From Immundisolibacter sp. (GTDB taxonomy: Bacteria > Pseudomonadota > Gammaproteobacteria > Immundisolibacterales > Immundisolibacteraceae), in the NCBI RefSeq assembly GCF_014359565.1, contig NZ_JACIZD010000001.1:1-64000 (forward strand): a DNA stretch of 64,000 bases. The letters are read 5' to 3'. The notes below the pieces were generated by a model that saw only the letters and a program-made list of their open reading frames with translations, ran no database searches and was not told where the DNA came from. Positions 34,154 to 46,671 of this stretch are shown piece by piece. Made by a program: the position numbers and the translations under genes. The number at the start of each line of letters is the position of its first letter. The stretch's first letter is position 1.

Positions 34154-37160
<3,007 letters not shown>

Positions 37161-37168
37161 CGGGGCGC

Positions 37169-37456
37169 CTATTCGGCCGGCTCGAAGCCTTCCAGGCGCA
37201 GCTGGCCGTTCTGCTCGACCAGCTGCTGGACCTTAAGTTCCGCGCTTTTGAGAGCCAGCTGACAACTGCGGGCAAGCTGCACGCCGCGCTCGAAATCGCG
37301 CAGCGAGTGCTCCAGGCTCAGTTCGCCGCGTTCGAGCTGCTCGACCAGGGCCTCGAGCTCGGCCAGCGCGGCCTCGAAATCGGGCGCGGCCGGCGCCGCT
37401 TCCATGCCGGTCGTGGCATCGGCGGCCGGCGCCGCGGGCTTACGCTTGCTGGTCAT
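37169..37456 (-). CDS. xseB: Exodeoxyribonuclease VII small subunit
   Basis: 95 aa. The conserved core is [20 protein letters not shown], then [16 protein letters not shown], forming helices that bind XseA. An Ala/Pro-rich N-terminal tail of about 25 residues makes it slightly longer than usual. ATG 37456 was chosen; another ATG lies at 37468. Divergent from parE with 84 bp between. Confidence 0.94.
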
Positions 37457-37540
37457 AGTGGCTAGCATAGCGCACCCTTCGCCCGCCCCGGCAGCCCTGC
37501 GCCGCCCGTCCGCCCGCCGTTTGCGGCCCGCCCGAGCCTG

Positions 37541-39421
37541 ATGAATCAAACCTACGACGCCGCTTCCATCGAGGTCCTGACCGGCCTCGAGCCGGTGCGC
37601 AAGCGCCCCGGCATGTACACCCAGACCGAACGCCCCAACCACCTGGCGCAGGAGGTCATCGACAACGCGGTGGACGAGGCGCTGGCCGGTTACGCCCGGC
37701 ACATCGCCGTCACCCTGCACGCCGACGGCTCGCTGTCCGTGCGCGACGACGGGCGCGGCATGCCGGTCGACATCCACCCCGAAGAAGGCCTGCCGGGCGT
37801 GGAGGTGATCCTGACCCGCCTGCACGCCGGCGGCAAATTCTCGAACAAGGCCTATCAGTTCTCCGGCGGCCTGCACGGCGTGGGCGTGTCGGTGGTCAAC
37901 GCCCTGTCGTCGCGGCTGGAAGTGACGGTGTGGCGCGACGGGCGCGAGTACAAGATGGCGTTTGCCAACGGCGAGAAGGTCACCGACCTGCACGTGATTG
38001 GCGAGGTGCCCCGGCGCACCACCGGCACCGAGGTGCGCTTCTGGCCGGATCCGGCGTTTTTCGACCAGCCGAGCTTCCACGTCGGGCGCCTCAAACACCT
38101 GCTGCGCGCCAAGGCGGTGCTGTGCCCGGGCCTGGAGGTCAGCTTCACGGACCCCAGCGGCACCGAGACCTGGCTGTACAAGGACGGCCTCGGCGAGTAC
38201 CTGAGCAGTGCCGTGGGCGATCTGCCGCGGCTGCCGGAGACGCCGTTCACGGCCAGTTTCAGCGCCACCAACGAGGCCGCCGATTGGGCCGTCACCTGGC
38301 TGCCGGAAGGCGGCGAGACGATCGCCGAAAGCTACGTCAACCTGATCCCGACCGCGCAGGGCGGCACGCACGTCAACGGCCTGCGCACCGGCCTGACAGA
38401 GGCCATCCGCGAGTTCTGTGAGTTCCGCAACCTGCTGCCGCGGGGCCTGAAGCTGGCCCCCGAGGACGTGTGGGAGAACGTCGCCTACGTGCTGTCGGTG
38501 AAGCTGCGCGAGCCGCAGTTCACCGGCCAGACCAAGGAGCGGCTGTCGTCGCGCGAGTGCGTCGCCTTCGTGTCGGGCCTTGCCAAGGACGCGTTCAGCC
38601 TGTACCTGAACACGCACACGCAGATCGGCGAGCAGCTGGCGGAACTGGTCATCAGCCGTGCCGCCCGGCGCCTGAAGGCCGCCCGTCAGGTAGTGCGAAA
38701 GCGCATCACCTCCGGCCCGGCACTGCCCGGCAAGTTGGCCGACTGCACGCTGCAGGACCCGGCGCGCACGGAGCTGTTTCTGGTCGAGGGCGACAGCGCC
38801 GGCGGCAGCGCCAAGCAGGCGCGTGATCGCGAATTCCAGGCCATCCTGCCGCTGCGTGGCAAGATTCTGAACACCTGGGAAGTGGACGGCGCCGAGGTGC
38901 TGGCCTCGCAGGAAGTGCACCACATCGCCATTGCCGTGGGCATGGACCCGGGCTCGAACGACCTGTCCGGCCTGCGCTATGGCCGCATCTGCGTGCTGGC
39001 CGATGCCGACTCCGACGGCGCGCACATCGCCACGCTGCTGTGCGCGCTGTTCGTGCGCCATTTCCCGGCCCTGGTGGCGGCCGGCCATGTATTCGTGGCC
39101 ATGCCGCCGCTGTACCGCATCGACGTCGGGCAGCACCAGTTCTATGCGCTGGACGACACCGAGCGCCAGGGCGTGCTGGATCGCATCGCGGCCGAGAAGA
39201 TCAAGGGCAAGGTCAACGTGCTGCGCTTCAAGGGCCTGGGCGAAATGAACCCGCCGCAGCTGCGCGAGACCGTGATGGCGCCCGACACGCGCCGCCTGGT
39301 GCAGCTCACCGTCGACGACGGCGACGACACCAACGCCCTGCTCGACATGCTGTTGGCCAAAAAGCGCGCCCAGGATCGGCGGCGCTGGCTGGAGGACAAG
39401 GGCGACCTGGCGGAGGTGTAA
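37541..39421 (+). CDS. parE: DNA topoisomerase IV subunit B
   Basis: 626 aa. The GHKL ATPase domain has [24 protein letters not shown] and [13 protein letters not shown]. The transducer domain and the C-terminal TOPRIM/GyrB part follow, with [20 protein letters not shown] and DADSDGAHI. The absence of the GyrB-specific insertion and the length near 630 aa support ParE over GyrB. It decatenates daughter chromosomes with ParC, which is not in the window. Confidence 0.95.
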
Positions 39422-39436
39422 GAGCGCGCGAGACTT

Positions 39437-40180
39437 TCAGTCCGCGTGCTCGCACAGGGCATCCACCGTGCCCGTCAGACGGCGCAGGTCGTCCGGATTC
39501 GACAGGCGGTGATCGCCGTTCTTGAGCAGGGTCAGCGCGACATCGTCGCCCTGCAGGCGCTCGACCAGGGTGATCGACCGCTGCCACGGCACGTCACTGT
39601 CGCGCATGCCATGCAGGATGCGTACCGGGCATGAGATGTCGATCGGCGCATGCAGGAGCGCATGGCGGCGGCCATCCTCGATCAGCCGGCGCGTGATCAG
39701 GTACGGCTGTTCGCTGTACTCGGACGGCCGCTCGATGTGGCCGTCGCGCTGCATGCGCTCGCGCTCGTCGGGCGTCAACTCGTCGTCCCAGATCGCCTGC
39801 GTGAAATCCGGCGCCGGCGCCAGCAGCGCCAGCGCGCGCACCCGCTGCGGACGGGCCAGCGCCAGCAGCAGGGCGATCCAGCCGCCCATGGACGAGCCGA
39901 CGATCACCTGCGGGCCCGCGGTCAGTTCATCCAGCACCGCCAGCGCGTCGCCCAGCCAGTCGCCGATGCAGCCGTCCGCAAAGCGCCCGCCGGACGCGCC
40001 GTGGCCGGAATAATCGAAGCGCAGGAAGGCGCGACCCTGCTGCCGGCAATGATCGGCGAGGGCGGTGGCCTTGCTGCCGCTCATGTCGGACATGAAGCCG
40101 CCACAGAACAGCACGCCGGGCGTGCGGCCGGCGATTTGCTCGTAGGCGAGGCGATGGGAACCGCGGTCCAGGAACTGCAT
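39437..40180 (-). CDS. Alpha/beta hydrolase
   Basis: 247 aa. Nucleophile elbow GSSMGGW (about residue 94), an oxyanion region near GVLFCGGFMSDM, and a catalytic His in NGDHRLSNPDD near the end with a likely Asp in MRDSDVPW. It resembles the ABHD10/palmitoyl-thioesterase-like group of small hydrolases; the substrate is unknown. ATG 40180 fits the domain start. The stop lies 15 bp from the convergent parE stop. Confidence 0.85.
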   Translation of the reverse strand: MQFLDRGSHRLAYEQIAGRTPGVLFCGGFMSDMSGSKATALADHCRQQGRAFLRFDYSGHGASGGRFADGCIGDWLGDALAVLDELTAGPQVIVGSSMGGWIALLLALARPQRVRALALLAPAPDFTQAIWDDELTPDERERMQRDGHIERPSEYSEQPYLITRRLIEDGRRHALLHAPIDISCPVRILHGMRDSDVPWQRSITLVERLQGDDVALTLLKNGDHRLSNPDDLRRLTGTVDALCEHAD

Positions 40181-40211
40181 GACGGGGATCAAGAGCTGCT
40201 CCAGAAAATTA

Positions 40212-40227
40212 TTTTGCGATCGCAAAA
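40212..40227. promoter_or_regulatory. 16-bp perfect palindrome upstream of the small-RNA promoter
   Basis: TTTTGCGATCGCAAAA is a perfect 16-bp palindrome centred on GCGATCGC. It ends 7 bp before the -35 box of the promoter at 40235. It lies between divergent transcription units and could be a regulator-binding site. Confidence 0.5.
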
Positions 40228-40234
40228 AAATAGG

Positions 40235-40264
40235 TTGACAGGATCGGCAGGGGGCTTTTAAGAT
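40235..40264 (+). promoter_or_regulatory. Sigma-70 promoter for the candidate small RNA
   Basis: A consensus -35 box TTGACA (40235-40240) is followed after 18 bp by TAAGAT (40259-40264). Transcription would begin at about 40,270-40,272. This is one of the best promoter matches in the window. Confidence 0.7.
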
Positions 40265-40270
40265 TCGTCC

Positions 40271-40345
40271 CGACGTTCGCAATGAACGTCGTTTCTCCTC
40301 CTCTTAACCTCCAATCGGGAGTGCCTCGGCCCTCCCGATTTTTTT
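40271..40345 (+). ncRNA. Candidate trans-acting small RNA, about 75 nt
   Basis: Predicted transcript from the promoter at 40235-40264. A perfect 8-bp 5' hairpin, CGACGTTC/GAACGTCG with loop GCAAT (40271-40291), comes first. A 21-nt single-stranded pyrimidine-rich stretch with CTCCTCCTCTT (40292-40312) follows. An intrinsic terminator closes it (40313-40345). The layout of hairpin, unpaired anti-Shine-Dalgarno sequence and terminator is typical of regulatory RNAs that mask ribosome sites. No open frame of note is contained. I do not recognise it as a known RNA family. It could also be a leader ending in an attenuator before htpX, whose start is 188 bp further. Confidence 0.6.
40313..40345 (+). 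terminator. Intrinsic terminator of the candidate small RNA
   Basis: The 9-bp stem AATCGGGAG/CTCCCGATT encloses a 10-nt loop and is followed by T residues (seven in a row including the stem end). Confidence 0.88.
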
Positions 40346-40532
40346 GACCTTGCGGAAAACGATCGTTCGGCAGGGCCATTTCGTGATGTCATGGCCACAT
40401 CTGTTCGGGTGGCTGGGCGAGAGTAGCGAAATTTCGCGCCGAGTGTTGCCCGCCTGACTTGAACCGGACCCGCCTCGCCCCTATCTTGGCAGCCAGTTCG
40501 TCCCGTCGCGGATGCCAAGTCAAGGAGCTTCC

Positions 40533-41405
40533 ATGAAGCGGATCGTGCTGTTCGTCCTCACCAACCTGGCGGTGCTGCTGGTCCTGAGCGTCGCCCTCAG
40601 CATCATCATGCCGCTGCTGGGCATTCGCCCGGAGCAGGGGGGCATGGCACCGCTGCTGGTGTTCGCCGCGGTGTTCGGCATGGGCGGCGCGTTCATTTCG
40701 CTGGCGATGTCCAAGTGGACCGCCAAGCGCATGGTCGGCGCGCAGGTCATCGACCAGCCCCGCAACGACACCGAAACCTGGCTGCTGAACACCGTGCGCC
40801 GGCAGGCCGAGCTGGCCGGCATCGGCATGCCGGAAGTGGCCATCTACGATGCGCCGGACGTGAACGCGTTTGCCACCGGCATGAGCCGCAACAACGCGCT
40901 GGTCGCCGTCAGCAGCGGCCTGCTGCGCGCCATGTCGCGCGACGAGGCCGAGGCCGTACTGGGCCACGAGATCAGCCACGTCGCCAATGGCGACATGGTG
41001 ACCCTGACGCTGATCCAGGGCGTATTGAACACCTTCGTGATCGTGCTGTCGCGCCTGGTCGGGCAGTTCATCGACCGCGCCGTGTTTCGCAACGAGGACG
41101 GTCATGGCGCCGGCTTTTTCATCGCCACCATGGTGGCGCAGCTGCTGTTCGGCATCGTCGCCAGCGTGATCGTGATGTGGTTCAGCCGGCAGCGCGAGTT
41201 TCGCGCCGACACCGGCGGCGCCCAGCTGGCGGGGCGCGGCAAGATGATCGCGGCCCTGCAGCGCCTGAAGGCCGCCCACGAACCGCCAGTGCTGCCGGAG
41301 CAACTGGCCGCGTTCGGCATTTCCGGCGGCAAGGGCATCTCGCGACTGTTCATGTCGCACCCGCCGCTGGAAGAGCGCATCGCCGCCCTGCAACAGGCGG
41401 CCTGA
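40533..41405 (+). CDS. htpX: Protease HtpX
   Basis: 290 aa inner-membrane zinc metalloprotease. Two N-terminal membrane segments (about 5-55), the zinc motif [10 protein letters not shown] (about residue 141), two further hydrophobic segments, then the third ligand Glu in [10 protein letters not shown]. It degrades misfolded membrane proteins, complementing FtsH. ATG 40533 has AAGGAG seven bases upstream. Confidence 0.96.
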
Positions 41406-41423
41406 CCGCGTATCAAATCAACC

Positions 41424-41458
41424 AGCGCCTGGTTCCCGCCGGAGCCAGGCGCTTTTTT
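41424..41458 (+). terminator. Intrinsic terminator after htpX
   Basis: Perfect 9-bp stem AGCGCCTGG/CCAGGCGCT with a 12-nt loop, followed by a T6 run. It begins 18 bp after the htpX stop and separates it from the next gene. Confidence 0.9.
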
Positions 41459-41483
41459 GTTTGTTCGTTTCGAGGATTGCCCG

Positions 41484-42707
41484 ATGTCCCTGATTCGCCC
41501 GTTTCGTGGTCTGCGCCCGGCTCCCGGACGCGCCAGCCAGATCATCGCCCCACCCTACGACGTGATGAACACGGCCGAGGCGCGCGCCATGGTCGAGGGC
41601 CGGCCGCTGAGTTTCCTGCACGTGTCGCGGCCGGAAGTGGACCTGCCTGCGGACACCGATCCCTACGCCGATGCCGTCTACGCCAAGGGCGCCGAAAACC
41701 TGCGGCGCATGATCGCCGACGGCGTGCTGCGCCAGGACGACGCGCCCTGCTACTACGCCTACCGGCTGGTGATGGACGGGCGCGCGCAGCTCGGCCTGGT
41801 GCTGGCGGCCTCGGTCAAGGCCTACGACGAGAACCGCATCCGCCGCCACGAGTTCACCCGCCCGGACAAGGAAAACGACCGCGTGCGGCACATCGACACC
41901 AGCAACGCGCAGACCGGGCCGGTGTTCCTGGTGCATCGCGCCACGGCGGCGCTGGACGGCGTGCTGGCTCGGGCCAGCCAGGGTGAGCCGGCGGCCGACG
42001 TGGTGGCCGATGGCGGCGTGCGCCACACGCTGTGGGTGATCGATGCCGCCGCCGACATCGCCGCCATCAGCGCGGCGGTCGAGGCGCTCGGCGTGCTGTA
42101 CATCGCCGACGGCCACCACCGCAGCGCCGCCGCCTCGCGCGTGGCCGCCCAGCGCGGCGGACCGGCGGATGCCGAGCACTGGTACTTCCTGGCCGTCAGC
42201 TTTCCGCACGACCAGGTGAAGATTCTGGACTACAACCGCCTGCTGACCGACCTGAACGGTCTGGACGAGGCCGCCTTCAAGGCGCGCGTAGCCGAGCATT
42301 TCCAGATCGAACCGGTCACCGGCGAGGCGCGCCCGTTGGCTGCCAACACATTCGGCATGTACCTCGGCGGCCAGTGGTACCGGCTCACGTTGAAACCTGG
42401 CCGGGTGCCGGCCGATCCGGTGGGCCGGCTCGACGTGAGCCTGCTGCACCAGTACCTGATCGAGCCGATTCTTGGCGTCAGCGACCCACGCCGCGACAAG
42501 CGCATCGATTTCGTCGGCGGCATCCGCGGCCTGGGTGAACTGCAGCGCCGGGTGGACAGCGGCGAGATGGCGGTGGCCTTCGCCCTGTATCCGACCTCGC
42601 TCGAAGACCTGATGGCGGTGGCCGACGCCGGCCAGGTGATGCCGCCCAAATCGACCTGGTTCGAACCGAAACTGGCCGACGGCATGGTCAGCCATTTGCT
42701 GGACTGA
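41484..42707 (+). CDS. DUF1015 family protein
   Basis: 407 aa. Family signatures: RPFRGLRPAPG and APPYDVMNTAEAR at the N-terminus, RRHEFTRPDKENDRVRH near residue 120 and YIADGHHRSAAASRVA near 210. The family is annotated SpoOJ/ParA-associated or kinase-like, but no function is established. ATG 41484 starts at the conserved MSLIRPF. It is separated from htpX by a terminator and converges on cysS. Confidence 0.9.
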   Translation: MSLIRPFRGLRPAPGRASQIIAPPYDVMNTAEARAMVEGRPLSFLHVSRPEVDLPADTDPYADAVYAKGAENLRRMIADGVLRQDDAPCYYAYRLVMDGRAQLGLVLAASVKAYDENRIRRHEFTRPDKENDRVRHIDTSNAQTGPVFLVHRATAALDGVLARASQGEPAADVVADGGVRHTLWVIDAAADIAAISAAVEALGVLYIADGHHRSAAASRVAAQRGGPADAEHWYFLAVSFPHDQVKILDYNRLLTDLNGLDEAAFKARVAEHFQIEPVTGEARPLAANTFGMYLGGQWYRLTLKPGRVPADPVGRLDVSLLHQYLIEPILGVSDPRRDKRIDFVGGIRGLGELQRRVDSGEMAVAFALYPTSLEDLMAVADAGQVMPPKSTWFEPKLADGMVSHLLD

Positions 42708-42773
42708 GCCCGCAGCCGAGCCCGCTTCGCAGACTCTCTGCGGCTCGGGAACTTCCCTGGCGGCAGGCCGTGC

Positions 42774-44150
42774 CTAGCGCCGCCGCCAGGCGGTCCCCGA
42801 CGGGCCGTCCTCCAGCACGATGCCGGCCGCGTCCAGTTGCGCGCGGATGGCATCCGCCCGCGCGAAATCGCGCGCCTTGCGGGCGTCGATGCGGGCCTGC
42901 ACCAAGGCGTCGATTTCCGCATCCGACGGGCCTTCGGTACCAACGGTGCCCTTCAGAAATGCCTGCGCATCGTCCTGCAGCAGACCGAGCACGCCGCCCA
43001 GGTGGCGCAAGGTCGCGGCCAGGCGGGCCACCGCCGCCGGCTCCTGCGCGCGGTTCAGATCGCGCACCAGCTCGAACAGCACCGCGATGGCGCCGGGCGT
43101 GTTGAAGTCGTCCTGCATGGCGGCATCGAAGCGCGCCACATAGTCAGGATCAGGTTCCGCGCCCGTGGCGGCACCGGCCTTGGCCAGCGCCAGGTAGCAG
43201 CGGGTCAGGCCCTCGCGGGCGGCATCGAGCGCGGCATCGGAGTAGTTCAGCGCGCTGCGGTAGTGGCTGGCGAGCAGGAAAAAGCGCAGCACTTCCGGCT
43301 GGTAGCGGGCCAGCACCTCGCGGATGGTGAAGAAGTTGCCGAGCGACTTCGACATTTTCTCGTCGTCGATGCGCACGAAGCCGTTGTGCATCCATATGTC
43401 GACATAGCGCTCGCCGGTGGCCGCCTCGGACTGGGCGATCTCGTTCTCGTGGTGCGGAAAGATCAGGTCGTGCCCGCCGCCGTGGATGTCGAAATGGGCA
43501 CCCAGACAGGCCGTGGACATGGCCGAGCACTCGATGTGCCAGCCCGGCCGGCCGGCGCCCCACGGGGAGGGCCAGGCCGGCTCGCCCGGTTTGGCGGCCT
43601 TCCACAGGGCAAAGTCGAGCGGATCGGCCTTGGCCTCGTTGATCTCCACCCGCGCGCCGGCCCGCAGATCCTCCATGACGCGGTGCGACAACTGCCCGTA
43701 GCGGTCGAAGCTCTGCACGGCGTAGTAGACGTCGCCGTTGTCCGCCCGGTAGGCGTGGCCGCCCTGGATCAGCATCTCGATCATGCGCACGATGTCGCCG
43801 ATGTGCTCGCTAGCGCGCGGCTCCTGATCCGGCGGCAGCACGCCCAGCCGCGCCAGATCCTCGTGCATGGCGGCGATGTAGCGCTCGGTCAGGGCCGTGG
43901 TGGACTCGTTGTTCTCGGCCGCGCGGCGGATGATCTTGTCGTCGATGTCCGTGATGTTGCGCACATAGTGAACCGTCAAGCCCAGGTGGCGCAGGTAGCG
44001 CACCACCATGTCGAACACCACGAACACCCGCGCGTGACCCACGTGGCAGTAGTCGTACACCGTGGCGCCGCACACGTACATGCGCACCGTGCCGGGAACC
44101 AGGGGGCGCAGCGGCTGCTTGTCGCCGGTGAGGGTGTTGTGAATCAGCAT
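42774..44150 (-). CDS. cysS: Cysteinyl-tRNA synthetase
   Basis: 458 aa, full length. The class I signature is HVGHAR (about residue 36, the HIGH motif) and KMSKSLGN near 270. Zinc ligands include Cys in [10 protein letters not shown] and in WHIECSAMS, with the [15 protein letters not shown] region. It charges tRNA-Cys in the cytoplasm. Convergent with the DUF1015 gene and divergent from the cyclophilin gene, a common gammaproteobacterial neighbour. Confidence 0.97.
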
Positions 44151-44271
44151 GCGTGGGCCGGGTCGGAAAAACGGGCGCGGAATGATACCGCGTGGCCTGC
44201 GCGGACCCGCCGGGACGCCGCCCGCCCCATGCTAGAGTAGCCACCCCGTTTTACCTCTCCCGCTGCGCGCC

Positions 44272-44862
44272 ATGCCGTTACGCCTGCTCCTGTCCCTGGT
44301 GCTTGGCCTGCTGCCGCTGGCCGCTCCTGCCAAGGAAGCCACTGCCATGCCGGTCAATGTCTTGCTCGAAACCAACCTCGGCGCCATCACCCTGGAGCTG
44401 TACCCGGACAAGGCGCCCAAGACGGTGGCCAATTTCACCGACTACGTGCGCGCCGGACACTACAACGGCACCGTGTTCCACCGCGTGATCCCGAATTTCA
44501 TGGCCCAGGGCGGCGGCTTCACGGCTGATTTGCAGCAAAAGCCCACCAACGCGCCGATCACGAACGAGGCCGACAACGGCCTGCAGAACCTGCGCGGCAC
44601 CATCGCCATGGCGCGCACCGGCGAGCCGCACTCGGCCAGCGCGCAGTTCTTCATCAACGTGGCCGACAACGCGTTCCTGAACTTCACCGCGCCGACCCGC
44701 CAGGGCTGGGGCTACGCCGTGTTCGGCAAGGTCACCGCCGGCATGGACGTGGTGGATGCGATGGTCGCCCTGCCGACCGGCGCTGCCGGGCCGTTCGGCT
44801 CGGACGTGCCCAAACAGGCCGTCGTGATCGAATCGGCGCGAGTGCTCGACGCCGCCGAATAA
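44272..44862 (+). CDS. Cyclophilin-type peptidyl-prolyl isomerase, exported
   Basis: 196 aa. A signal peptide (about 1-20, ending AAPAKEA) precedes one cyclophilin domain with FHRVIPNFMAQGG, ARTGEPHSASAQFFINV and VFGKV. The active-site Arg and Gln residues are present. It would speed proline isomerisation in folding envelope proteins (PpiA-like by location). It is followed after 21 bp by lpxH. Confidence 0.92.
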   Translation: MPLRLLLSLVLGLLPLAAPAKEATAMPVNVLLETNLGAITLELYPDKAPKTVANFTDYVRAGHYNGTVFHRVIPNFMAQGGGFTADLQQKPTNAPITNEADNGLQNLRGTIAMARTGEPHSASAQFFINVADNAFLNFTAPTRQGWGYAVFGKVTAGMDVVDAMVALPTGAAGPFGSDVPKQAVVIESARVLDAAE

Positions 44863-44883
44863 CGGCGGGCAACGCGGCTGCCG

Positions 44884-45612
44884 ATGCTGCGCATCTTCAT
44901 CGCCGACCTGCACCTGCGTGCGGACGCGCTGGATCAGGCGCGCTTCGTCGATTTCCTGCAGGGCTTCGGCGCGCACAGCGAGCTGTACGTGCTGGGCGAT
45001 CTGTTCGACCTCTGGCTGGGCGACGATCTGGACCTGCCGCGCTACCGGCCCGTCATCGGCGCACTGCGTGCCTATGACGAGCGCGGCGGCGTGGCGCGCA
45101 TCATGGTCGGCAATCACGACTTTCTGATCGGCGATGCGTTTTTTGCCCAAACGCGCGCCCGCCCCTTGCCCGACCCGACCGTCATCGAACACGCCGGCCA
45201 ACGCCTGCTGCTGACCCACGGCGACGCGCTGTGTCTGGCCGACGTGGACTACCAGGCGTTTCGGAAGCGCATTCGCCAGCCGGCGTTCGTGGCGCAGTTT
45301 CTGGCCCAACCGGCCGAACAGCGCATCGCCATCGCGCGCGAATTCCAGGACGGCAGCCGCACCGCGACCGCCAGCAAACCGGCGGCGATGATGGATGTGG
45401 ATGCCGATGCCGCCAATGCGGCCCTGATCGATGCGGGAGCCGGCCTGCTGCTGCATGGCCACACACACCGACCCGGCGTGCACCGATTGCCGGCTGGCCG
45501 GCGGGTGGTGCTCGGTCCGTGGTTCGAGAAAGAAAGCGCCCTGATCTGGCCGGCCGATGGCGCGCCGCAGCCGCTCAACATGGGCTGTAACGCGACCGAC
45601 ATCGTCGGCTGA
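44884..45612 (+). CDS. lpxH: UDP-2,3-diacylglucosamine diphosphatase
   Basis: 242 aa calcineurin-like phosphoesterase. Metal-binding motifs in order: FIADLHL, LGDLFDLWLGDD, VGNHDFL, LTHGDALC and LHGHTHRP. It makes lipid X in lipid A synthesis at the inner face of the membrane, so the host is a Gram-negative with LPS. The neighbourhood cysS-cyclophilin-lpxH is conserved. Confidence 0.96.
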   Translation: MLRIFIADLHLRADALDQARFVDFLQGFGAHSELYVLGDLFDLWLGDDLDLPRYRPVIGALRAYDERGGVARIMVGNHDFLIGDAFFAQTRARPLPDPTVIEHAGQRLLLTHGDALCLADVDYQAFRKRIRQPAFVAQFLAQPAEQRIAIAREFQDGSRTATASKPAAMMDVDADAANAALIDAGAGLLLHGHTHRPGVHRLPAGRRVVLGPWFEKESALIWPADGAPQPLNMGCNATDIVG

Positions 45613-45750
45613 ACCAGGCCCGTAGAGGGAATCGGCGCCCTGCCGCGTGACCCACACTCCGGTGCGCAGCTTCGCTGCCCCCTGATTCGTGCGGGAACCT
45701 CATCGCCCGGTATGGCCGGGCTCCTGCATCATCCGCGATGCAAACCCGCC

Positions 45751-46671
45751 TCAGGGCGTCTGCGCGCCTTCCTTGACCGGCGCGATCATGTCGCGCGCCG
45801 ACAGACCGGTCGGCAGCAGCGACCAGCTGGCCACGTAAATGGTCGAGTAGGCGCCCGCCAGCACGCCGATCAGCATCGCCAGCGAGAAGCTGTGGATGGC
45901 ATCGCCGCCGAACAGCACCAGCGGCAGCAGCGCCAGCACCACGGTGGCGGTGGTGGCGATGGTGCGCGTCATGGTCTCGTTGACCGAGCGGTTGATGACC
46001 TCGCGCGTGCTGGCCTTGCGCATGCGCGGGAAGTTCTCGCGGATGCGGTCATAGATGACCACCGTGTCGTTGATGGAGTAACCGATCACGGTCAGCACCG
46101 CCGCCACCACAGTCAGGTCGAATTCCAGCCCGACCAGCGCGCAGAAGCCGACCGTGATGATGGCATCGTGCGCCAGCGACACGACGGCGCCGATGGCGAA
46201 GCGGTACTCGAAGCGGAACGCCACGTAGGCGCCGATGGCCAGGATGGCGTACAGCAATGCCAGCGCGGCGTTGGTGACCAGCTCATCGCCGACCTGCGGC
46301 CCCACGAACTCCACCCGCTGCAGGGTGATGTTCTGACCGCCGCTGCCGAGCGCCTCCAGCACGCGTGTGCTCAGCTCGCCCGTGGAGCCGGCCACACCCG
46401 CCGGAATGCGCACCAGTACCTCGCTGCGGGTGCCGAAATACTGCACCACTGCGCCTTCCAGGCCGTGGCCGGCCAGCGCCGCCTGCACCTGCGCCAGTTC
46501 CACCGGCGCCGGGTACTGCACCTCGACCAGCGTGCCACCGGTGAAGTCGATGCCGAAATTCAGGCCCCGTACGGCCAGCGCCAACACCGACACCAGCACC
46601 AGCACGCCGGACAGCGTCAGCATGACCGGCGCATAGCGCATGAAGTCGACTTTGAAAGCTTGCTGTGCCAT
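45751..46671 (-). CDS. secF: Protein translocase subunit SecF
   Basis: 306 aa, six membrane segments. Motifs: GIDFTGGTLVEV in the first periplasmic part, and GYSINDTVVIYDRIREN and MTRTIATTATV in the membrane domain. It acts with SecD in proton-driven protein export. ATG 46671 begins 4 bp after the secD stop. Confidence 0.96.
   Translation of the reverse strand: MAQQAFKVDFMRYAPVMLTLSGVLVLVSVLALAVRGLNFGIDFTGGTLVEVQYPAPVELAQVQAALAGHGLEGAVVQYFGTRSEVLVRIPAGVAGSTGELSTRVLEALGSGGQNITLQRVEFVGPQVGDELVTNAALALLYAILAIGAYVAFRFEYRFAIGAVVSLAHDAIITVGFCALVGLEFDLTVVAAVLTVIGYSINDTVVIYDRIRENFPRMRKASTREVINRSVNETMTRTIATTATVVLALLPLVLFGGDAIHSFSLAMLIGVLAGAYSTIYVASWSLLPTGLSARDMIAPVKEGAQTP

Follow-up and report, generated by a model that had tools for sequence, protein, structure and literature searches.

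Among the closest described systems, MmgR (alpha-r8, RF00519) of the alphaproteobacterium Sinorhizobium meliloti is an Hfq-dependent small RNA (sRNA) of 77 nt that is repressed by PhaR/AniA (PMC8401924, PMC12542648). It is encoded by a stand-alone gene with a palindrome in the promoter region, in a host that stores PHB. The alphaproteobacterial RNAs Cuckoo, CcsR and alpha-r14 (NfeR1) use a CU-rich anti-Shine-Dalgarno (anti-SD) motif as seed. In NfeR1 the translation-silencing seed CCUCCUCCC (PMC10746234) occurs in the single-stranded regions of three hairpins; the CcsR RNAs share a transcript with a DUF1127 gene. For Immundisolibacter (order Immundisolibacterales, Gammaproteobacteria), a soil genus of pollutant degraders, the literature found contained, by title and abstract, nothing on riboregulation and no described riboregulators.

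We analysed a stretch of 64,000 nt from an Immundisolibacter genome (NZ_JACIZD010000001.1, positions 1 to 64,000), referred to as the window, and delimited in it an sRNA gene that is of a known general kind, yet uncatalogued. Like MmgR, it is a stand-alone gene for an RNA of similar length, with a palindrome in its promoter region and a PHB-storing, Hfq-encoding host; unlike MmgR, it has no RF00519 match, its palindrome does not have the known PhaR spacing, and it belongs to a different class of Proteobacteria. A CU-rich anti-SD motif links it to Cuckoo, CcsR and NfeR1. However, the motif occurs singly in a linker, the gene is single-copy, and neither repeated CCUCCUCCC hairpins nor, among the scanned neighbours, a DUF1127 gene were found at the locus.

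Gene structure and conservation in Immundisolibacter

The sRNA lies between a divergent alpha/beta hydrolase gene (39440–40180, minus strand, start at 40180; PF12146) and the M48 peptidase gene htpX (40533–41405, plus strand; PF01435), which is itself directly followed by a strong terminator-like stem of 13 bp (AGCGCCTGGTTCC..GGAGCCAGGCGCT) and a T run at 41424–41453. Its first element is the palindrome TTTTGCGATCGCAAAA (TTTTGC-GATC-GCAAAA, 40212–40227, no strand assigned), a candidate operator directly upstream of the -35 box. The sigma-70-like promoter TTGACA-18-TAAGAT follows on the plus strand (40235–40264, -35 box at 40235–40240, -10 box at 40259–40264). An RNA of about 76 nt, supported by conservation and fold z-score, has its predicted ends at 40270 and 40345 (plus strand), the start site being a prediction from sequence. 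It consists of a 5' hairpin CGACGUUC-GCAAU-GAACGUCG (40271–40291) with a perfect 8-bp stem (40271–40278/40284–40291), a CU-rich linker UUUCUCCUCCUCUUAACCUCC (40292–40312) that is unpaired in both the MFE and the centroid structure and is a putative seed complementary to Shine-Dalgarno sequences, and an intrinsic terminator (40313–40345) with a 9-bp stem AAUCGGGAG/CUCCCGAUU, an inner 2-bp extension (stem 40313–40341) and a U run to 40345. Within the linker, CTCCTCCTCTT occupies 40295–40305, and CUCCUCCUCUU and AACCUCC are each complementary to Shine-Dalgarno sequences; CTCCTCCTC is present once in the window. The preliminary description had listed a perfect 16-bp palindrome, the promoter, an 8-bp hairpin starting at the predicted +1 and an unpaired core followed by a 9-bp terminator stem with a T run, and all of these were recovered at their places.

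The RNA folds far more stably than expected from its composition: positions 40267–40347 reach -30 kcal/mol versus -14.3 kcal/mol for shuffled sequences (z = -5.8), none of 200 shuffles folded as well, and the predicted structure is the 5' hairpin, an open linker and the terminator. The promoter match is the sole sigma-70-like site scoring at least 9/12 in 36000–46000, where shuffles lead to an expectation of 0.6, and it sits exactly before the 5' hairpin. The palindrome alone is no evidence, because the window contains six perfect palindromes of at least 16 bp, but it gains weight because its outer half-sites are conserved.

In a search of 37 relatives, the segment was found only in the genome of the window and two others of the genus (G001 and G002); one of the carrier contigs is NZ_JAQVGQ010000026.1 of Immundisolibacter sp. 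STE_186. It occupies the same place in both other genomes (parE, hydrolase, sRNA, htpX), so that the synteny with htpX anticipated earlier holds in all three, and the order shared with G001 extends from parE through the divergent hydrolase, the sRNA and htpX to a DUF1015 gene. The RNA is 99% identical to that of G002 and 94% identical to that of G001 (74 of 79 positions, 40268–40346), as compared with 79% for the flanking hydrolase gene and 87% for htpX in G001; the RNA is therefore more constrained than its protein-coding neighbours. Identity to G001 is concentrated in the functional parts (hairpin 20/21, linker 20/21, terminator 32/34, -35 box 6/6) and drops to 9/18 (50%) in the promoter spacer, 16/32 upstream of the palindrome and 19/33 (58%) downstream of the terminator. 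G001 retains the -35 box TTGACA, both stems, the CUCCUCCUCU core, the terminator and the outer half-sites of the palindrome, while its -10 box reads TATCAT instead of TAAGAT. The expected conservation of promoter, stems, terminator and core in relatives was thus observed within the genus.

The 5' hairpin of G001 differs by a single substitution, through which a U-A pair becomes U-G. All three genomes have the same outer terminator stem, the only stem-loop change of G001 there lies in the inner part, and the remaining RNA changes fall in the linker, the inner part of the terminator or the ends. The comparison within the genus comprises three genomes, of which two share 97% identity in this region; here compensatory change in the stems, proposed as a check, was limited to the U-A to U-G type of exchange.

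The sRNA and htpX share one strand and a conserved order, as they would if 40270–40345 belonged to htpX as its regulatory leader or as an attenuator and no separate RNA were made. But a strong conserved terminator lies about 190 nt upstream of the start of htpX, in both species htpX is preceded by a heat-shock-like promoter motif of its own (sigma-32-like, CTTGAAC-N13-CCCCTATCTT, 40458–40487, plus strand, read from the sequence and also upstream of htpX in G001), and the sequence from the terminator to htpX is not conserved (58% identity immediately after the terminator). A leader is very improbable on these grounds, and the doubt raised at the outset, that the element might be merely a leader, is answered by the same conserved terminator and downstream promoter motif. 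The CU-rich block could also be only the reverse complement of a Shine-Dalgarno sequence serving a longer hydrolase with a TTG start at 40282 on the minus strand, where the window has an in-frame TTG after GGAGGUUAAGAGGAGGAG. This reading, which leaves promoter, stems and terminator unexplained, fails because in G001 the TTG, at a distance of 101 nt from the ATG of the hydrolase, is not in its frame, with a stop just before it, and because homologs in G001, G004, G007 and G308 align from residue 2–3 of the short form; we give it almost no credence. What remains is a promoter and an intrinsic terminator of its own that are conserved as a unit across species and in synteny, which is the mark of an independent trans-acting sRNA gene. 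Sequence comparison thus argues strongly that this is a genuine sRNA gene of about 76 nt with a transcript of its own, and we regard its existence as highly probable.

Predicted action of the sRNA

We propose that 40270–40345 (plus strand), as a gene on its own, encodes a trans-acting sRNA of about 76 nt that probably depends on Hfq, is controlled through the palindrome and lowers translation by pairing with Shine-Dalgarno sequences, an account that we consider reasonably probable as a whole. In this model, the sRNA would be made from the sigma-70 promoter under the control of a transcription factor bound to the palindrome beside the -35 box, and would be ended by the intrinsic terminator. The 5' hairpin may guard the 5' end of the RNA, and the unpaired CUCCUCCUCUUAACCUCC would pair with several mRNAs at their purine-rich Shine-Dalgarno regions, lowering their translation.

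The interpretation in the preliminary description was supported in part; its claim that the RNA blocks ribosome sites agrees with the observations and has precedents such as NfeR1. The linker holds an unpaired, conserved, CU-rich sequence complementary to AGGAGG, and hfq is encoded in all six genomes tested, with PF17209 above cut-off in G000, G001 and G002; Hfq binding is probable and an anti-SD mechanism likely. Pairing energies did not add to this: in 400 kb of the genome of the window, with gene starts guessed by a simple rule, the core paired with 288 translation starts at -8.99 kcal/mol, which is better than with coding interiors (-7.09 kcal/mol) but no better than the values of shuffled (-8.95 kcal/mol) or reversed cores (-9.15 kcal/mol). 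Because shuffled and reversed cores pair equally well, the energies support no specific target, and the most promising candidates were not conserved between species. The complement of a 12-nt core occurs at a dihydrodipicolinate-synthase-like and a UbiD-like start (named from sequence), each in one species only, and the window species has an 8-bp pairing with the phasin mRNA (GGAGGUUA) that G002 lacks. For an extended target complement of 23 nt with three mismatches, the sole match was the sRNA itself.

This outcome of the base-pairing test, together with a possible overlap between the RNA and the leader of the divergent hydrolase gene, leaves some room for action by another route, as a protein sponge, a small-peptide mRNA or an antisense RNA to the hydrolase 5' leader, with the CU-rich stretch as a protein-binding site. 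CU-rich anti-SD seeds are a well-known design, however, and conservation tracks the stems and the core and not codons, so that we hold such a route to be improbable and continue to favour the anti-SD account.

The promoter palindrome and possible control by PhaR

A perfect TTTTGC-N4-GCAAAA occurs once each in the genomes of the window and of G002, at the sRNA promoter region in both, and with one mismatch in G001; other one-mismatch matches in the genomes are at control level. In G001, 11 of the 12 outer bases are kept and all four central bases differ, GATC being replaced by ACGT, which is still self-complementary. The conserved half-sites and the changed centre suggest a dimer-binding site with a free centre. 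A literature search did not find the palindrome reported as a bacterial site. With one perfect site per genome and only a partial resemblance to PhaR sites, the controlling factor put forward in the preliminary description is a putative one.

The genus encodes phaR, phasin and phaC, and PhaR-type sites with a 3-nt spacer precede phasin (TTTTTGC-AGT-GCAGAA) and phaC (GTGC-ACT-GCAAAA); PhaR-type sites in Immundisolibacter lie near 61386 of contig C6 in G000 (L134) and at 376306 and 382506 of contig C1 in G002. The half-sites of the sRNA palindrome are the same as in these sites (TTTTGC-GATC-GCAAAA; in G001 TTTTGC-ACGT-GCAGAA). This raises the possibility that the sRNA belongs to a PHB (carbon storage) circuit in which PhaR would bind the palindrome and the RNA would adjust storage or the catabolism of carbon, a lead made more attractive because MmgR, likewise a short sRNA, is PhaR-repressed and Hfq-dependent in Sinorhizobium (PMC8401924). 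Sibling-like sRNAs of another gammaproteobacterial family, described below, also carry clear PhaR-type sites. The spacer, however, is 4 nt in all three genomes, as opposed to 3 nt at the phasin and phaC sites of the genus and in the Ralstonia consensus YTKNTGCRNYGCANMAR (PMC12849132). From this consensus the sRNA sites deviate by 3 and 4 mismatches, values equalled by 9 and 47 of 100 shuffles, respectively, and the phasin mRNA pairing is the one lost in G002. For PhaR of Paracoccus, a spacer of 3–4 nt has reportedly been given. Judged by these sites, control of the sRNA by PhaR is possible, while its placement in a PHB circuit as a whole strikes us as rather unlikely.

Searches outside the genus and a multicopy sRNA family

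The family had not been recognised at first sight, and Rfam 15 covariance models gave no match over the sRNA, either at the gathering score or at E <= 1. By similarity, no relative was found outside Immundisolibacter; plasmids yielded no match, the hydrolase locus of G004, G007 and G308 lacks the sRNA, and a covariance model of the RNA (R1) had no match in the second genus of Immundisolibacteraceae. Across 369 genomes of the class, R1 returned outside the genus only matches of 27–31 bits, mostly lone hairpins or terminators. The sole one with the whole layout, in G308 (JAFEGB01, 'Proteobacteria bacterium SZAS TMP-80'; L009, the same locus as L048), has a CGACAUC hairpin, UUCUCCUCCUCCUC and a terminator; at 30.8 bits it is the best match outside the genus, but with an E value of 0.0016 per genome and 369 genomes searched the link is not significant. 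A pattern of core plus T run, run over about 85,000 species genomes, hit 42 loci, of which only those of Immundisolibacter (L044) and L048 combined hairpin and terminator, the L048 terminator being missed by the stem rule of the script and plain on reading the sequence. Over the class, this pattern matched about as often as a backward control. As far as sequence can tell, the sRNA is specific to Immundisolibacter, to which it adds a well-delimited, uncatalogued sRNA gene.

Pattern searches revealed two tandem copies of a similarly built sRNA in G308 and related copies in 18 of 39 genomes of its family. These RNAs share with the window RNA a 5' hairpin C(G/A)ACAUC..GAUGU(C/U)G, a UCUCCUCCU-type core, a terminator and a length of about 75 nt. 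They differ from it in their several, often tandem copies (at least six in G308), in the UUUGGUGG that follows the core in most of them, and, for one subgroup, in having PhaR-type sites at most promoters. None belongs to an Rfam family, and together they form a separate family. An alignment with the window RNA shows compensatory changes in four of seven hairpin pairs, the pairs being taken from an automatic alignment; the layout is common to both, and homology is not established.

The subgroup with PhaR-type sites has the hairpin CAACAUC..GAUGUUG, a UCUCCUCCUUUGGUGG core and a terminator, with copies at 1583 in L102, 1355 and 1516 in L104, 854 and 1005 in L122, 909 in L124 and 1526 in L009, and in L113, L114, L116, L119 and L121. 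In most copies the site has mostly 2–3 mismatches to YTKNTGCRNYGCANMAR, rarely equalled by shuffles; one example is TTGACGCAGTGCAACAT at the -35 box. A second subgroup of the same bacterial family (L105–L112, L115, L117 and L118, near position 1500, or 314 in L118) has no PhaR-type site and is built from the hairpin GUGUGGCAGGC..GUCUGCCACAC, with UUCUCCUC often in the loop, followed by UCCUCCUUUGGUGGUUUUUGGCCGG and a terminator. A larger uncatalogued multicopy anti-SD sRNA family with PhaR-type promoter sites thus occurs elsewhere in Gammaproteobacteria, which makes a link between carbon-storage sensing and anti-SD sRNAs beyond Sinorhizobium testable. It is conceivable, albeit doubtful, that PHB-storing Gammaproteobacteria use PhaR-controlled short anti-SD sRNAs, represented in Immundisolibacter by the window RNA, whose operator would have a four-base spacer. 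With MmgR of Alphaproteobacteria as a further case, the coupling of a carbon-storage sensor to RNAs that block translation would then be recurrent and perhaps convergent.

Two further loci drew attention during the searches. L030 (G084, 1380–1610) is sRNA-like and without an Rfam match; its sigma-54-like promoter reads TTGGCAC-N5-TTGTA, and it has a hairpin whose loop contains CCUCCUU, a second hairpin followed by UCCUCCUCC, and a terminator-like stem. L029 (G007, same order, 1440–1550) is unrelated to the window RNA and has a sub-threshold similarity to RF00519 (23.7 bits versus a cut-off of 41); this non-coding segment has a hairpin with CUCCCUCCUCUU in its loop, as well as UUCUCCUCCUC and a strong terminator.
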